Shown: positions 13,901 to 20,716 of the stretch, one piece after another
How positions within the stretch are numbered: position 1 is the stretch's first letter
How the letters are laid out: each line of letters starts with the position of its first letter
Source: an uncultured Methanocorpusculum sp.
GTDB taxonomy: Archaea > Halobacteriota > Methanomicrobia > Methanomicrobiales > Methanocorpusculaceae
NCBI RefSeq assembly: GCF_963667985.1
Contig: NZ_OY764081.1
Span: 806,001-870,000 of the forward strand
Direction of reading: 5' to 3'
Length of the DNA: 64,000 nt
Position numbers and translations under genes: made by a program
Notes under the pieces: generated by a model
What the model was told of the DNA's origin: nothing
Seen by the model: only the letters and a program-made list of their open reading frames with translations
The model's database searches: none

Positions 13901-15262
13901 ATGACACTGCAGACAGAGTCTGCGGAGAAAACCGCAGACGCAGAGACGCAAACGAACGAGAGTGGTGCCTTTTCAAAGGGAAGATATGCCGGGATTGATG
14001 ACGGTGAATACTGGAAAAACTGGAAATGGCAGGTCAGGCATGCGGTCAGAAGTATCGACATGGTCCAGAAGGTACTCGGAATAACGTTTGACCCAAAAGA
14101 ACGAGAAGAGCTCCAGAAAACGGTCGAAAAGTTCCCAATCAGTATCACCCCGTATTACCTCTCGCTTATCGACACCGAGGATTACCGAAATGACCCGATT
14201 TTCAGGCAGGCATTCCCATCTCCTGCAGAACTCATCGTGGAAAACTATGAGCTCAGCGATCCGCTTGCAGAAGACAAAGACAGTCCGTGCGAGTGTATAA
14301 CTCACAGATATCCGGATCGGGTTCTTTTTCTTGTCAGTAATACCTGTGCAATGTACTGCAGACACTGTACACGGAAACGAAAAGTCGGTGATAAAGATTC
14401 CATCCCCGATCGTGAAAAAATTCTTGAGGGGATTGCCTACATACGTGAAAACACCCAGATTCGCGACGTACTCCTTTCTGGAGGAGATCCGTTTATGTTG
14501 AGCGATGAAAGCTTGGACTGGATACTTACCGAACTTACCGCCATCCCGCATGTCGAGGTAATACGAATCGGGACAAGAGTTCCTGTTGTCCTTCCATTTA
14601 GGATCACCAATGAACTGGTCGACATCCTCAAAAAGCACAAACCGATCTGGATCAATACACAGTTCAATCATCCAAAAGAGATGACTCCGTCAGCCCAGGC
14701 AGCAGTTGCAAAACTTGTCGATGCGGGAATTCCGCTTGGAAATCAGTCGGTTCTCCTTGCACGGATTAACGACTGCCTGGTCATTATGAAAGAACTGGTA
14801 CATCAACTGGTGAAAAACCGGATTCGTCCGTATTATTTGTATCAGTGCGATCTGTCAGAAGGAATCAGTCATTTCCGAACACCCATCGCGAAAGGAATCG
14901 AGATTATGGAAAGTCTGATCGGGCACACCAGCGGATTTGCCGTCCCAAGGTATGTGGTGGATGCGCCAGGAGGAGGAGGGAAGATTCCTGTATCTCCGAA
15001 TTATCTGCTGACATGGTCGGTAAACAAGGTAGTTCTTCGAAACTATGAAGGAATCATCTGTACATATCAGGAGCCGGCAGGTTATGACAGAATTATCTGT
15101 GATCAGAAGTGTGATGCCTGCAAACTCCAGCTGAACATACGAAACGCAGATGAATCAAAGGTCGTCGGCGTCGCAAAACTTCTCGCTGATTATGATGATA
15201 CAACCACACTGATCCCGGAAAATAACGAACGTCTTGACAGGAGGGAGGATGAAACCAACTGA
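13901..15262 (+). CDS. ablA: Lysine 2,3-aminomutase
   Basis: Radical SAM/PLP enzyme turning L-lysine into beta-lysine, the first step to the osmolyte N-epsilon-acetyl-beta-lysine. The 453-aa chain has C149-C153-C156 (CAMYCRHC) for the [4Fe-4S] cluster, [10 protein letters not shown], the lysine-binding aspartates D317 (YQCDLSEG) and D354 (VVDAPGGGG), the PLP lysine K361, and the C-terminal zinc cysteines C400, C404 and C407. An acidic N-terminal extension of about 30 residues is longer than in bacterial forms. It overlaps ablB by 14 bp. In methanogens this pair responds to salt. Confidence 0.96.
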
Positions 15263-16088
15263 TTCCGTGATCACATATGGAAACAGCATACTTCAGCACG
15301 GACCTTTCAACAACAGGATCTACTTCATAACACTTGCACCAGAGGACCTGCCGGCGATCATCAGGTATGCAGATGATCTTGCCGAAAAGGAGGGATATAC
15401 CAAGATCGTTGGAAAAGTTCCCTTATCTTCTGCAGAGCATTTTTTCCATGCAGGCTACGTAATTGAAGCATCCATCCCAGCATTCTATCAGGGCAGAGAA
15501 GAGGCAGTATTCATGGCGAAATACACCGACCCTGCCAGAAAAGAGATCAAAGGATTAGACAAACATACAGAGACGCTTGCTACAGTTCAGAAGCATACTG
15601 CTCATCGAAAGGAAGGATATCTCTCGGAAGGGGTCGCCCTTCGGCCCGCACAAACAGATGATGCCGAAAATCTTGCAGCCTTGTTTCAACGGGTCTTTCC
15701 AACGTACCCTTTCCCAATATTCGATCCTGCATATCTCAAAAAATCCATGCAGGACAACGTACGCTATTTTCTCATCACGCACGGAGAGAACATTGCTGCA
15801 TCAGCGGCATGCGAAGTTGATGAAGCGAGCCTGACTGCAGAGATGACGGATTTTGCAGCAGATCCCTTGTATCGCGGCAGGGGATTTGCAGGTATCCTGC
15901 TTGCCGAGATGGAAAAGGCTATGAAGCGAGAAGGAATCATCACAGGATATACCATCGCCAGATCGATTTCTCTCCCTATGAATGCAGTTTTTGCAGGGGC
16001 TGGTTACCGATTTGGCGGGATGCTTCCAAACAACACCAACATAAGCGGAGCAATGGAGAGCATGAATATCTGGTACAAAAAACTTTAA
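15249..16088 (+). CDS. ablB: Beta-lysine N-epsilon-acetyltransferase
   Basis: GNAT-fold enzyme that acetylates beta-lysine, finishing synthesis of N-epsilon-acetyl-beta-lysine. The 279-aa product has an N-terminal AblB domain ([17 protein letters not shown]) and a C-terminal GNAT domain, with the acetyl-CoA loop region [18 protein letters not shown]. The ATG at 15249 is chosen over 15234 because ACAGGAGGG lies right before it. It starts inside ablA, so the two are translationally coupled. About 50 bp after the stop begins an AT-rich gap before a second KamA-like gene. Confidence 0.93.
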
Positions 16089-16347
16089 AGAAAAACTCCA
16101 GATATCCCCACCTTTTCCAATACATTATACTATATTCAAAAAATATTCAAAGGTATTTAACATAATTTTCTCCATATCCGCCCAATAAACAGAAAAGGTT
16201 TAAACAATAGAGACAAAGTAAACTCTGTTTAAAGAATTGTGCATCGGGTCACTAAGATCTTCTGTTTAACGGCAATGTGACCGGTCTTTTTGCACATATC
16301 GAGTCTGCCCCTTTTGGGCGGATTGTACCTTCAACCGAGGGAAAGAA
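16089..16347 (+). promoter_or_regulatory. Promoter and structured leader of the second KamA-family gene
   Basis: Contains GAAAAGGTTTAAAC (16192-16205), a good BRE/TATA match shared with the ablA upstream region. About 120 nt of leader would follow, with an inverted repeat GGTCAC (16247-16252)/GTGACC (16277-16282), the hairpin GCCC-CTTTT-GGGC near 16306-16318, and repeated CTGTTTAA boxes near 16225 and 16262. Just before the ATG, CCGAGGGAAAG offers a ribosome binding site. Confidence 0.45.
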
Positions 16348-17484
16348 ATGAAACCAAAGTACATTACATCTATTTCTGCGCTTGACAATCTTGTTGGGCT
16401 TGCTCCCAAAGAACGGGAGATGATGGAGAGAGTGACCGACGTATTTCCGTTTCGGGCCAACGATTATTATCTATCACTTATCGACTGGAAAGACCGGAGG
16501 GACCCGATCAAAGCTATCATCATTCCCAACCCCCGTGAACTTGAATCCGGCGGATCAAATGACCCATCCTGTGAAAAAGACTACACCAAAAAACCCGGCC
16601 TTCAGCACAAATATGATCAGACCGGACTTCTGCTTTTGACCGATGTCTGTGGCGGAATATGCCGTTTCTGTTTTCGAAAACGCCTTTTTATGTCCTGCGA
16701 ACGCGAGACGGTGAAAGATGTCTCCGAGAATCTCGAGTATATTCGTCAGCACAAGGAGATCACCAATGTACTTCTCACCGGCGGGGATCCACTGACCCTA
16801 GGCACCAGGCATCTCGAATCCGTGCTCCGTGAACTTCGCGAGATCCCGCATGTAAGCATCATTCGGATCGGAAGTAAGATGCTGGCATACAATCCTTACC
16901 GTATCCTCAACGATGCTGAACTTCTTTATGTTCTCTCCCGATACAGCACCCCAGAAAAGAGAATATATCTGATGGCACACTTCAACCATCCTAATGAGAT
17001 CACGGATGTCTCCATTCAGGCGGCAGAGGCGCTGCAGAAATCCGGTGTGATCGTTGTCAATCAGACACCGATCCTTAATGGAATCAATGCCGAATCGGAG
17101 ACGCTTACGGCACTTTTCCGAAAACTTTCCTTCGCAGGAATCTCGCCCTACTATGTCTTCCAGTGCCGGCCGGCGACCGGAAACGGACTATTTCAGGTCC
17201 CGGTCGAACAGTCCTATGACATCATTCAAGGAGCTTGGAAAAACTGTTCGGGTCTTGCAAAACGTGCGAGATTCATCATGTCCCACTCGACCGGAAAAGT
17301 CGAGGTAGTTGGGAAAGATGCCGAAAACATCTTCATGCGATATCATCAGGCGGCAGAAAACGAGGAAATTGGAAAGTTCATGACCTTCCCGACGAACCCA
17401 AAAGCAACTTGGTTCGATGATTATCTTGCAGACCCGACACTGGAAATGGAACAATCCACATCTATAAATCGAATCCTAAGATAG
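16348..17484 (+). CDS. KamA-family radical SAM protein, divergent lysine-2,3-aminomutase paralogue
   Basis: A 378-aa paralogue of lysine 2,3-aminomutase. It keeps the cluster cysteines C101, C105 and C108 (CGGICRFC), NVLLTGGDPL and a lysine (K317 in SHSTGK) aligned with the PLP lysine. It differs where AblA binds substrate: D317 of AblA aligns with the RPATG segment (274-278) and D354 with MSHS (311-314), so both lysine-contacting aspartates are gone. The C-terminal zinc cysteines are also absent. It is therefore probably a PLP radical mutase or related enzyme acting on another substrate. It has its own promoter region and no partner acetyltransferase. Confidence 0.85.
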   Translation: MKPKYITSISALDNLVGLAPKEREMMERVTDVFPFRANDYYLSLIDWKDRRDPIKAIIIPNPRELESGGSNDPSCEKDYTKKPGLQHKYDQTGLLLLTDVCGGICRFCFRKRLFMSCERETVKDVSENLEYIRQHKEITNVLLTGGDPLTLGTRHLESVLRELREIPHVSIIRIGSKMLAYNPYRILNDAELLYVLSRYSTPEKRIYLMAHFNHPNEITDVSIQAAEALQKSGVIVVNQTPILNGINAESETLTALFRKLSFAGISPYYVFQCRPATGNGLFQVPVEQSYDIIQGAWKNCSGLAKRARFIMSHSTGKVEVVGKDAENIFMRYHQAAENEEIGKFMTFPTNPKATWFDDYLADPTLEMEQSTSINRILR

Positions 17485-17579: not shown

Positions 17580-17840
17580 TTATCCCCGGCGGCAACTTTG
17601 GTCGCCGCGGACTCTTGATCCCATCCCACAGCCGCATGGCATTCCCCCGCGGCCAGCACCATAAAATGGCGCCTGTGAAATTATCTGTTTTTCCCGTTCT
17701 CCGGACGCTGCCGCACCCTCTGGCGTGTGTACCGCTGACGGTACAACTTCGGTGTACCCCGGTCTAGCCCGGCATTTCCCAAAACCCCGTCCTGTCATTG
17801 ACCCCGTTCCAAGAGGTCCTGTACCATTTAATCCTGGCAT
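17580..17840 (-). CDS. Small Gly/Cys-rich DUF5320 protein
   Basis: An 86-aa protein with the family's N-terminal signature MPGLNGTGPLGTGSMTGRGFG followed by a cysteine (KCR) and a C-terminal GGMPCGCGMG. Family members are short and often lie near [4Fe-4S] MinD-type ATPases; function is unknown, with metal binding possible from the cysteines. Its promoter carries the same 18-bp motif as that of the MinD-type operon 2 kb away. It is transcribed alone, ending close to the second KamA gene (convergent). Confidence 0.75.
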   Translation of the reverse strand: MPGLNGTGPLGTGSMTGRGFGKCRARPGYTEVVPSAVHTPEGAAASGEREKQIISQAPFYGAGRGGMPCGCGMGSRVRGDQSCRRG

Positions 17841-17872
17841 TTCATGTGTTCCCTGATACTATTCAAAGTACC

Positions 17873-17890
17873 ATATTTACACATATGCGC
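17873..17890 (-). promoter_or_regulatory. Shared 18-bp motif in the DUF5320 promoter
   Basis: On the minus strand it reads GCGCATATGTGTAAATAT, just downstream of a TATA element (TTTATATATTT around 17895-17906) and about 33-50 bp from the DUF5320 start. The copy at 19843-19860 matches at 16 of 18 positions and has the same place relative to TATA. A position at the transcription start suggests a repressor site. Confidence 0.6.
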
Positions 17891-18023
17891 GAAAATATAT
17901 AAATATATTTATAGTGGCAAACTACATTGGGGGTTATCAGAACACTAATTCATTCTCGTCGCTATTAGGAATAACGAAAAAAAGGGGAAGATAAAACCCG
18001 CAACCAACAACCCTACGCAATCA

Positions 18024-18905
18024 TCAGCAGGCGTTAAGCTGGGTCAATTCCATTTTTAAATCGTCTGCCAATACACGGATTGCTCGCGATGCCGGTGATT
18101 CACCAAAATCGGTGACCGGGACTCCCGCACGTATCGCACCTATCACTGCAGGATCAAAAGGAATCTTTGCAAGAAGAGGAAGGGCTTCCTCACGGCAGTA
18201 GGATTCAATCTCTTCTGTATGTAACGGATCCAGATCGTATCGATTCACAACAACAAAGATTTTTGGACGGAACTGACGGCAAACGGTGACGACCCTTTTC
18301 AGATCATGAAGACCCGAGACACTCGGTTCTGTGACCACAAGCACTGCATTCATGCCGCTGACTGACGAAATCAGAGGACAGCCGGTTCCAGGCGGACCGT
18401 CAACCAGAAACATATCCGCATCCCCGTCACGTTCGAGTGCCGTTTTCTTCACTGCGTGAACAAGCAGACCGGAATTTCCGGCACCGGGTACGAGTCTGGC
18501 ATGAACAAGATGACCGCACGAAATCTCCAAATACAGAATCACACCGGTCTGCCTTGGCTGCATAGTCACCGCGTTGGCAGGGCAGACCAGTGTGCAGACC
18601 GCGCATCCTTCACAGCGGGATGGATTGATCCTATATGACTCACCATCCAGATCAACAGCATTAAAGCGGCAGTAATCTCTGCACGTACCGCACTCCGTAC
18701 ATACTGCCGAATCAATCACTGCCGCCTTCATTCCCATGAACGGATCGGTTCGGAGCAGGCGAGGATTCTGGACAAGAGCCATATTTGCAGCATCCACATC
18801 GCAGTCCGCAAGTACAAGAGATCCTTTCAGCAGACGGGATAGAGAAGAGGTGAGCATCGTCTTTCCCGTGCCACCTTTCCCGCTGATCACAGCTACCTGA
18901 ATCAT
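18024..18905 (-). CDS. MinD/Mrp-type P-loop ATPase with two [4Fe-4S] motifs (second of pair)
   Basis: A 293-aa ATPase of the ParA/MinD superfamily. It starts with the deviant Walker A GKGGTGKTML and has a later DGPPGTGCPL (Walker B/switch). Between them is a bacterial-ferredoxin-like insert with two Cys motifs, CTECGTCRDYC and CEGCAVCTLVCP, for two clusters. These proteins are often paired; the partner is the overlapping upstream gene, 4 bp. Family roles lie in Fe-S or redox-linked metal processes, unproven for this type. The pair probably forms a heterodimer. Confidence 0.88.
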   Translation of the reverse strand: MIQVAVISGKGGTGKTMLTSSLSRLLKGSLVLADCDVDAANMALVQNPRLLRTDPFMGMKAAVIDSAVCTECGTCRDYCRFNAVDLDGESYRINPSRCEGCAVCTLVCPANAVTMQPRQTGVILYLEISCGHLVHARLVPGAGNSGLLVHAVKKTALERDGDADMFLVDGPPGTGCPLISSVSGMNAVLVVTEPSVSGLHDLKRVVTVCRQFRPKIFVVVNRYDLDPLHTEEIESYCREEALPLLAKIPFDPAVIGAIRAGVPVTDFGESPASRAIRVLADDLKMELTQLNAC

Positions 18906-19753
18906 TCCTCTACCCCCGCAAGTATTTTGGCCTTGTCAAAGAGAGACAGAAATTCCTTCTGCCACTCCGGCCGCGCTCTGCAGAGAAGATCACCTATACT
19001 GTGAATAGAAGCGATTTCACGGCTGAATGGAATGGTCAGAAGAACCTCAATACCATGCTCAGAACAGAACCTGAGAGTCTCGTCATCCTTTCCATCACTT
19101 CTATTGATGACGACGCCTGCCGGAATCCCAAGACGCTTGGTCACATCAACGGCAAGTTCGAGATCGTGCAGACCAAATGGTGTTGATTCGGTGACAAGCA
19201 AACATGCATCGCACCCCTCAAGTGCCTCGACAACCGGACATGATGTTCCAGGAGCCGTGTCAAGAATTACAACAGGATCGGCTGCGGTCTCTTTTTTCAC
19301 CTCATGAATAATTGGAACGGCGAGGGGACTGCCGATATCCAAAACACCGGTAACAAGCTTCAAGCCCGGAGCGGGTGTTGAGACAGAGAGATTCCCTATT
19401 CGTTTTGGTTCTTCGCTAATCGCCTTTTCCGGACAAACCAAAACACATCCCCCGCAGGAGTGGCACAGATCGGCAAAGAAAAGAAGTTTCTTCGGCAGTA
19501 CGGAGATTGCCCCATACCGGCAGAACTCGCCGCACTTCCCGCACTTGGTACAGAGCAGTTCATCGATTACGGGTATCGGCAGGGTTACATCACGTGTCTG
19601 GACTGTTGAAGGAAAGAAAAGGTGGAGATTCGGTTCTTCCACATCACAATCAGCGAGGGTTACAGGACCTTTCGATGAGTGGGTGAAAGCCAGATTTGCT
19701 GCCACCATACTTTTTCCTGTACCACCTTTTCCACTGGTAATAGCTAATTTCAT
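18902..19753 (-). CDS. MinD/Mrp-type P-loop ATPase with two [4Fe-4S] motifs (first of pair)
   Basis: A 283-aa paralogue of the next gene. Walker A GKGGTGKSMV at the N-terminus, ferredoxin-like motifs CTKCGKCGEFC and CHSCGGCVLVCP, and DTAPGTSCPV in the switch region. It is the first gene of a two-gene minus-strand operon whose promoter bears the 18-bp motif shared with DUF5320. The gene divergent to it encodes a DUF364 protein. The set of paired Fe-S ATPases, DUF5320 and DUF364 recurs in methanogens (from memory) and points to a shared metal-related task. Confidence 0.88.
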   Translation of the reverse strand: MKLAITSGKGGTGKSMVAANLAFTHSSKGPVTLADCDVEEPNLHLFFPSTVQTRDVTLPIPVIDELLCTKCGKCGEFCRYGAISVLPKKLLFFADLCHSCGGCVLVCPEKAISEEPKRIGNLSVSTPAPGLKLVTGVLDIGSPLAVPIIHEVKKETAADPVVILDTAPGTSCPVVEALEGCDACLLVTESTPFGLHDLELAVDVTKRLGIPAGVVINRSDGKDDETLRFCSEHGIEVLLTIPFSREIASIHSIGDLLCRARPEWQKEFLSLFDKAKILAGVEE

Positions 19754-19842
19754 GGTTTTATTCTCTGATTTTTTTAAACGATCATGAGATCTCTGAATCG
19801 TGAGCCGGCTCCCGGTTTTGAGACCGAGATACTCTCATGTGT

Positions 19843-19860
19843 ATTTTTACTCATATGCGC
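19843..19860 (-). promoter_or_regulatory. Shared 18-bp motif in the MinD-type/DUF364 intergenic region
   Basis: Minus strand GCGCATATGAGTAAAAAT, directly downstream of TTTAAATTA (19866-19874) on the same strand. It matches the motif at 17873-17890 in 16 of 18 bases. It lies 90-107 bp before the ATPase start and 119 bp before DUF364 on the other strand, so it could control both. Confidence 0.6.
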
Positions 19861-19978
19861 ACAAGTAATTTAAACTATCTCATCGTACACATAGTATCCT
19901 TTGCAGAAGGTTCCGTTGATTATCCAAATGAATCGACGAATTATGCGAATAGTTCTGCATCAGGTGGTGAATAATTTC

Positions 19979-20716
19979 ATGAGTAAACATACAATCATTG
20001 ATGACTTGCTTGCAACTCTGCCGAACAAACCCGTACCGGTTCGGTCTGTTCACGTCGGTGCCCACTGGACTGCTGTTTGCAGCACACGCTGCGGTCTGGC
20101 TACAACGATAATTGGAGACAATTGTCACGATCACAAAACTGTTGTGCGTGATGCCGGATCCCTGCACTTGAAAAGTGCTCAGGAACTTGCCGAATATGCA
20201 AAATCGAATTATCCGTTAGAAGCCAGTATTGGTATAGCTGCTATCAACTCGCTTCTGGATATGGATGAACGAAACGCTGTAGAAATGAATGCATCTCAAG
20301 TTCTTATGGAAAAAGGCGCCGGGAAAAACGTAGCGCTTGTCGGGCATTTTCCCTTCATACCAAAACTCCGGGATAGTGTAAAAAATCTCTGGGTCCTCGA
20401 ACTCAATCCGACAGAAGATGACTACCCCGCGCAGGCTGCCAGTGAGTTGATTCCAAAGGCCGACATTGTCGCACTCACCGCAAGTTCTCTGATAAATCAT
20501 ACAATGGACAACCTGCTTGAGCTCTGCGATCCGGACGCACTGGTCATGATTCTTGGACCAAGCACACCCCTCTCGCCGGTATTGTTCGACCGGGGAGCAA
20601 ACATCGTTGCGGGATCACGTGTTCTGGATGAAAACGACGTCCTTCACGCCATTGCACAGGGATCAACGTTCCAGCAGGTAACCGGGGTTAAACTGTTGAC
20701 CTTTACACACCCATAA
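19979..20716 (+). CDS. DUF4213/DUF364 protein (putative metal-chelation domain)
   Basis: A 245-aa soluble protein. The N-terminal part (SVHVGAHWTAVCSTRCGLATTI) matches DUF4213 and the C-terminal Rossmann-like part (NVALVGHFPFIP, ILGPSTPLSPVLFDRGANIVAGSRVLD) matches DUF364. Related proteins have been linked to metal or cofactor handling without a defined reaction. The ATG at 19979 is chosen over 19901 because CAGGTGGTGA precedes it. Divergent from the Fe-S ATPase pair and sharing its control region. Confidence 0.78.
   Translation: MSKHTIIDDLLATLPNKPVPVRSVHVGAHWTAVCSTRCGLATTIIGDNCHDHKTVVRDAGSLHLKSAQELAEYAKSNYPLEASIGIAAINSLLDMDERNAVEMNASQVLMEKGAGKNVALVGHFPFIPKLRDSVKNLWVLELNPTEDDYPAQAASELIPKADIVALTASSLINHTMDNLLELCDPDALVMILGPSTPLSPVLFDRGANIVAGSRVLDENDVLHAIAQGSTFQQVTGVKLLTFTHP

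Follow-up and report, generated by a model that had tools for sequence, protein, structure and literature searches.

In Desulfovibrio vulgaris, the orp operons encode an ORP protein together with paired MinD-type ATPases that carry two 4Fe-4S sites (Orp3 and Orp4), and such bacterial operons are controlled by sigma54 (PMC6345978, in the portions of that report available to us). Here, we analyzed a 64,000-nucleotide stretch of DNA from an uncultured Methanocorpusculum sp. (contig NZ_OY764081.1, positions 806,001 to 870,000; hereafter the window), in which a short element, GCGCATATGWGTA, lies before a gene for a DUF5320 protein and again before a pair of genes for MinD-type ATPases. We consider it likely that this element serves as operator for a small regulon under autoregulation, with DUF134 (UPF0251) as the repressor that controls both its own gene and an archaeal ORP/IssA/MinD iron-sulfur system. 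As in the bacterial ORP complex, the window's MinD ATPases are paired and each contains 4Fe-4S domains according to a domain scan, and a PF02579 gene bearing the operator in the same genome is predicted to share their control. We take ORP to be PF02579, which agrees with the MrpORP match of the target that was scanned. Unlike the sigma54-controlled operons, the promoters here are of the TATA type with a CATATG operator, and the candidate regulator is DUF134.

Thioferrate is the form in which IssA from Pyrococcus furiosus (PF2025) stores iron and sulfide, and sulfide raises the expression of IssA when iron suffices (PMC5524996). A count of IssA homologues found them in 24 of 32 genomes of Methanomicrobiales (PMC8351635), and proteins of the IssA clade are more abundant in Methanococcus voltae grown on FeS2 (PMC9431491); these three reports were available to us in part. 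The PF02579 targets described below share the IssA domain family. The consulted portions of the IssA literature name no regulator, whereas the PF02579 targets have a candidate in DUF134.

Among archaeal regulators, the closest described proteins belong to the Tfx family, which shares with DUF134 a helix-turn-helix of the sigma-region-4 type. EnfR from Thermococcus onnurineus (TON_1525) is a dimer that represses via an inverted repeat at the promoter, and the site bound by Tfx in Methanothermobacter lies 3′ of the promoter of fmdECB (PMC10570040, PMC3087415, both in part). However, DUF134 constitutes a separate family: a Pfam scan of the Methanocorpusculum protein at E 0.01 returned just DUF134, sigma and helix-turn-helix models and no Tfx domain, so that the C-terminal domain of Tfx was not found. 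The EnfR site, in the text available, is a 36-base-pair (bp) pseudo-palindrome before carbon monoxide dehydrogenase genes, whereas the sites described here are short CATATG dyads in front of iron-sulfur genes.

We know of no function assigned to the DUF134 and DUF5320 families, and to our knowledge the control of iron-sulfur storage and delivery in methanogens is largely open. The present analysis supplies DUF134 with a predicted operator at a constant place in the promoter and with a set of targets found repeatedly across a methanogen order; additionally, shared control, beyond mere proximity, connects DUF5320 and a small Cys/His-rich protein with the iron-sulfur system. In the literature searched, whose coverage excluded most subscription journals, we found no description of an operator or a regulon for DUF134.

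The conserved element and its target genes

The site, its spacing, the gene set, the lineage range and the co-occurrence with DUF134 were all computed. The preliminary description of this DNA had placed two copies of an 18-bp motif on the minus strand, and both were recovered, GCGCATATGTGTAAATAT at 17873-17890 and GCGCATATGAGTAAAAAT at 19843-19860, with 16 of 18 positions identical. When up to 3 mismatches were allowed, a search of the window matched only those two copies, compared with 0.05 expected, and none of 100 shuffles reached two. As read from the sequence, TTTATAT (17897-17903) and TTTAAAT (19868-19874) lie upstream of the respective copies. The reported TATA elements therefore stand, but their equal placement does not, the distance from TATA start to motif being 13 bases for the DUF5320 copy and 14 bases for the MinD copy.

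In the whole Methanocorpusculum genome (1,760,986 bp), the 18-mer with up to 3 mismatches gave 10 matches (2 exact, 1 with two mismatches and 7 with three), and the reversed pattern gave 2. The two-mismatch match lies directly 3′ of a TATA element and directly 5′ of a gene for a protein with two PF02579 domains; inspection of the seven three-mismatch matches revealed no TATA-operator arrangement preceding a target gene. The 13-bp core GCGCATATGNGTA occurs four times, compared with 0.21 expected from base composition, namely once each before DUF5320, the Fe-S MinD pair, the double PF02579 gene (G000:C1:605205-605931, two PF02579 stretches, 138.4 bits, operator at 605184) and a DUF134/UPF0251 gene (C1:164973-165242). 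A genome-wide search, with many random matches counting against the idea, had been suggested as the check on a regulator site shared by DUF5320 and the MinD pair; just these four sites, each before a regulon gene, support such a site.

The conserved unit is 13 bp long, GCGCATATGWGTA, represents one form of an inverted repeat, RCNCATATGNGY, and lies directly 3′ of a TATA box. Across 113 sites, the first 13 bases of the 18-bp motif are conserved and the remaining positions are merely A+T-rich; the motif is thus shared as proposed, but at 13 rather than 18 bp, and is half of a degenerate inverted repeat. In the window, the motif searches, the 113-site spacing and the base-composition expectation delimit the operator cores as GCGCATATGTGTA at 17878-17890 (minus strand) in the DUF5320 promoter, where the earlier span of 17873-17890 comprises this core plus an A+T-rich tail, and GCGCATATGAGTA at 19848-19860 (minus strand) in the promoter of the MinD pair. 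The TATA regions, assigned from the sequence, are TTTATATATTTTC at 17891-17903 (minus strand; spacing fixed across the 113 sites) and TTTAAATTACTTGT at 19861-19874 (minus strand), respectively. The TATA box occupies -13 to -9 from the first operator base at the 113 sites, with T at -4 in 96% and at -3 in 92%, and at least four A/T fall within -13 to -9 at 118 of the 124 sites assigned to target genes below. Archaeal transcription starts about 25 bases past TATA; given this spacing, the operator would lie between TATA and the expected +1, a position at which the polymerase is usually blocked by a bound protein. The inverted repeat is plain in other families (TACTCATATGAGTA, ACACATATGTGTA, GCTCATATGAGCA), and the Methanocorpusculum operator is an asymmetric version, self-complementary at 8/14 and 10/14 bases in the two window copies.

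A search of 33 family genomes for the core found 35 sites (reversed pattern, 1), and a search of 199 genomes of the order for the 13-mer GCGCATATGAGTA found 122 sites, distributed over 85 of these genomes (reversed, 2); with 23 family sites common to both searches, there are 134 distinct sites, 35 from the family and 99 from the rest of the order. We classified the downstream genes at all 134 with profiles built for the analysis. A target gene directly follows 124 of them (DUF5320 56, PF02579 37, the small Cys/His-rich protein 18, DUF134 11 and MinD 2), which supports the earlier suggestion of an uncharacterised Fe-S/metal regulon. The Cys-rich class was defined post hoc, a first pattern capturing 7/99 sites and a version loosened after sequence inspection capturing 18/99; without this class, the assigned sites number 106/134. 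Regulon membership as first claimed holds but is larger, since PF02579 proteins and a probable regulator, DUF134, are added, the latter encoded elsewhere on the chromosome. The Cys/His-rich protein (HTCACGE...CTS..KFG.SCCC...CGHGPRC) follows 18 operators (L340, L345, L350, L352, L357, L360, L362, L363, L368, L372, L376, L380-L386), and one copy scanned against Pfam and NCBIfam had no match.

The MinD pair is present in 13 of the 33 family genomes, all 13 of which encode DUF134. As had been anticipated for orthologous promoters in close relatives, the site before the MinD operon is kept in 12 of these 13; in the thirteenth, G005, the PF02579 gene that precedes MinD is cut off by the end of the contig. 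Motif enrichment belongs to the order Methanomicrobiales: in a 196-genome sample of the phylum, the 35 genomes inside the order had 27 sites and none for the reversed pattern, compared with a background level of 2 versus 3 in the 161 outside.

A motif-free ranking of k-mers agreed with these searches. It covered the surroundings of DUF134 genes at 80 loci, taken from named genomes as the best-ranked 80 among 369 relatives, with long open reading frames masked; Methanocorpusculum, Methanocalculus, Methanoculleus, Methanoregula, Methanolinea and others were represented. The top 10-mer, CATATGAGTA, occurred in 36/80 loci (0.13 expected) and the top 12-mers, CGCATATGAGTA and ACTCATATGCGC, in 20/80 each (0.01 expected), although the loci include related species and are not 80 independent cases. 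The dyad RCNCATATGNGYA was present in 88 of 128 DUF134 loci with 221 matches, symmetric sites counting once per strand, i.e., twice, and control patterns (the reversed dyad and three other palindromic centres) gave no match in the same 128 loci. The fully symmetric form ACTCATATGAGTA was found at 13 places in 9 of 90 order genomes searched (reversed pattern, 2). Ten of these places were inspected: seven precede DUF5320 or PF02579 genes, and three lack such a target (one in G081 and two in G094).

DUF134 as the candidate regulator

DUF134 is the natural candidate because it is a helix-turn-helix protein with the operator at its own gene; in Methanocalculus-type genomes, it is encoded within or beside the target cluster. 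The Methanocorpusculum protein (G000:C1:164973-165242) matched PF02001 at 56.6 bits (cut-off 27; E 5.5e-15 in the genome scan) and Sigma70_r4_2 at 30.9 bits (cut-off 25.7), and DUF134 open reading frames at the loci were identified by hidden Markov model. A model of the M. parvum orthologue, with a mean predicted local distance difference test (pLDDT) score of 72.6 and values of about 84-95 for residues 41-100, resembles sigma region 4 domains in structure comparison, and the DUF134 profile returned designed proteins and weak sigma-factor matches among solved structures. The predicted fold is a sigma region 4-like helix-turn-helix. The N-terminal GRPR motif resembles an AT-hook. Three cysteines, C30, C35 and C105, do not vary among 57 sequences, and a fourth, C113, is conserved in at least 90%, suggesting that the protein holds a metal or Fe-S site.

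The Methanocorpusculum DUF134 gene (L128/L033, G000:C1:163500-167000) is followed, on the same strand and at a distance of about 330 bp, by a gene read as a Mrp/NBP35-like ATPase; at L155, a gene read as peroxiredoxin-like lies between DUF134 and such an ATPase. Genomes G013 and G014 (L084, L085) each encode two DUF134 paralogues, with a more symmetric operator, ACGCATATGAGTA or ACGCATATGTGTA, just downstream of one.

In the family, the core occurred in 17 of 19 genomes with DUF134 and in 1 of 14 without it (Fisher p 2.3e-6); in the order, GCGCATATGAGTA occurred in 42 of 75 with DUF134 and in 0 of 15 without it (p 2.6e-5). The sole family exception with the core but without DUF134, G020, has GCGCATATGCGTA without a TATA element or target gene. 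In G027, DUF134 is present and a degraded site, GCGTCAATGTGTA, lies at the equivalent promoter position. DUF134 was not found in five family genomes, G015, G020, G021, G023 and G026, which keep a PF02579 gene; upstream of that gene, 3 to 6 mismatches separate the best match from the operator, and the protein looks like a different paralogue.

Several observations weigh against DUF134 as the repressor acting at this operator. The co-occurrence counts were read by hand from related, non-independent genomes, completeness is below 90% for 7 of the 15 in the order that lack DUF134, and the exact 13-mer was not found in 33 of the 75 order genomes bearing DUF134. Because DUF134 is itself a target, the co-occurrence is also partly circular; it is support, not proof. 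Ten of the 134 sites have no assigned target (L029, L043, L127, L297, L301, L333, L336, L344, L349, L359): at L344 and L359, the TATA region is A+T-rich and no target gene was recognised, and L029, L043, L297, L301, L333, L336 and L349 look like chance or coding matches. The dyad RCNCATATGNGYA was not matched in 40 of the 128 DUF134 loci when their flanks were examined, and it is not specific by itself, since it gave 6 rows in the Methanocorpusculum genome compared with 3 for the reversed pattern; the extra match at C1:772266 falls within a 504-amino-acid open reading frame. With respect to the protein, Foldseek with the DUF134 model gave no match at E 0.001 or better, and certain more distant DUF134 proteins lack the cysteines. 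Recognition helix and half-site appear to vary together (a GCGC site is missing from 16 of 17 RR loci and present at 43 of 57 RK loci), but this covariation fails an independence test, with just one supported independent pair.

Proposed mechanism and alternatives

We infer binding of DUF134 at the operator, repression and the nature of the signal, as follows. A DUF134/UPF0251 dimer, with its sigma-region-4-like helix-turn-helix, GRPR motif and four conserved cysteines, would bind the inverted repeat RCNCATATGNGY and, sitting between the TATA box and the expected start, would prevent recruitment of RNA polymerase. It is this position of the operator that points to DUF134 as a repressor, which would also restrict its own synthesis. 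Its predicted targets are DUF5320, the paired 4Fe-4S MinD ATPases, PF02579 proteins (IssA/ORP-like) and DUF134, and in Methanoregula-type genomes the small Cys/His-rich protein as well; jointly, they would correspond, in archaea, to the bacterial ORP complex plus the IssA iron-sulfur store. Because IssA is sulfide-induced and IssA-clade proteins are raised on FeS2, iron-sulfide status is the likeliest signal, which could be sensed via the DUF134 cysteines.

The alternative that a different transcription factor binds the operator and that DUF134 is merely one target would equally link DUF134 to the presence of the motif, since DUF134 genes carry the operator like other targets do (11/35 family sites). 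We regard this as unlikely, given that DUF134 has a helix-turn-helix and that its gene lies within or next to the target cluster in Methanocalculus-type genomes, that the 13-mer is absent from all 15 order genomes without DUF134, and that different palindromes mark the start of some DUF134 genes in other archaea. DUF134 might also bind the operator but activate, or switch between activation and repression; its sigma-region-4-like fold would suit such a role. However, archaeal repressors usually act downstream of TATA and activators usually bind upstream of it, so with the site downstream of TATA we give this reading only a small chance.

The rigid spacing to TATA would fit an extended core-promoter element rather than a regulator site, but this is very improbable when the Methanocorpusculum genome has just four core sites, all preceding functionally related genes, and when the motif has dyad symmetry and falls to background frequency outside the order. 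We give almost no credence to chance or to a promoter copied through duplication within the window: although the window holds just two copies, in neighbouring transcription units, the expected numbers are 0.05 in the window and 0.21 in the genome, and the core is kept across genera while the flanks differ.

We extend repression by DUF134 beyond the order only tentatively, and with some doubt, to the view that DUF134/UPF0251 proteins are widespread cysteine-dependent sensors of iron-sulfide (or thiometallate) that autoregulate and repress an anaerobic ORP/IssA/MinD system, with operators diverging by lineage. Such operators would be the CATATG dyad in Methanomicrobiales, and TTATGAATATATATTCATAA and other palindromes in other archaea. 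At 30 archaeal loci inspected beyond the order, the perfect palindrome TTATGAATATATATTCATAA lies at the DUF134 start in L236, L240, L242 and L245, all from other archaeal families, where it is a possible diverged operator, and L263 has a CATATG dyad at the start. The palindromes outside the order are consistent with autoregulation by DUF134 with shifting specificity.

Genes of the window and the divergent DUF364 gene

On the minus strand of the window, the DUF5320 protein (86 amino acids, 17580-17840) matched PF17253 at 30 bits against a cut-off of 27. The first gene of the MinD pair (18902-19753, 283 amino acids) is overlapped by the second (18024-18905, 293 amino acids); both encode MinD-type ATPases with 4Fe-4S domains and matched CbiA, ParA and Fer4. 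The neighbouring gene on the plus strand (19979-20716; PF04016, PF13938) encodes a DUF4213/DUF364 protein that had been placed under the same regulator by way of a divergent promoter. Its regulon membership is unsupported, as none of the 124 assigned sites precedes DUF364, a conclusion drawn from the placement of all 124 in other classes and from inspection of the unassigned sites. The operator would also lie upstream, not downstream, of the possible TATA element of DUF364.

Locus L127 (G029:C7:118500-122000, site 120192-120204) is the syntenic counterpart of the window region. It keeps DUF364 and a KamA-like gene and, between them, the TTTAAATTACTTGT promoter with a one-base-altered operator, GCGCATATGGGTA; the MinD and DUF5320 genes are gone. 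We interpret the locus as what is left of an arrangement like that of the window; less probably, it hints at a DUF364 link.

Further along the window, 13901-17484 on the plus strand holds two genes read as KamA-like radical SAM genes that flank a GNAT-like gene. A domain scan of the gene at 16348-17484 alone matched Radical_SAM, and the cluster looks like one for synthesis of the osmolyte N-acetyl-beta-lysine.

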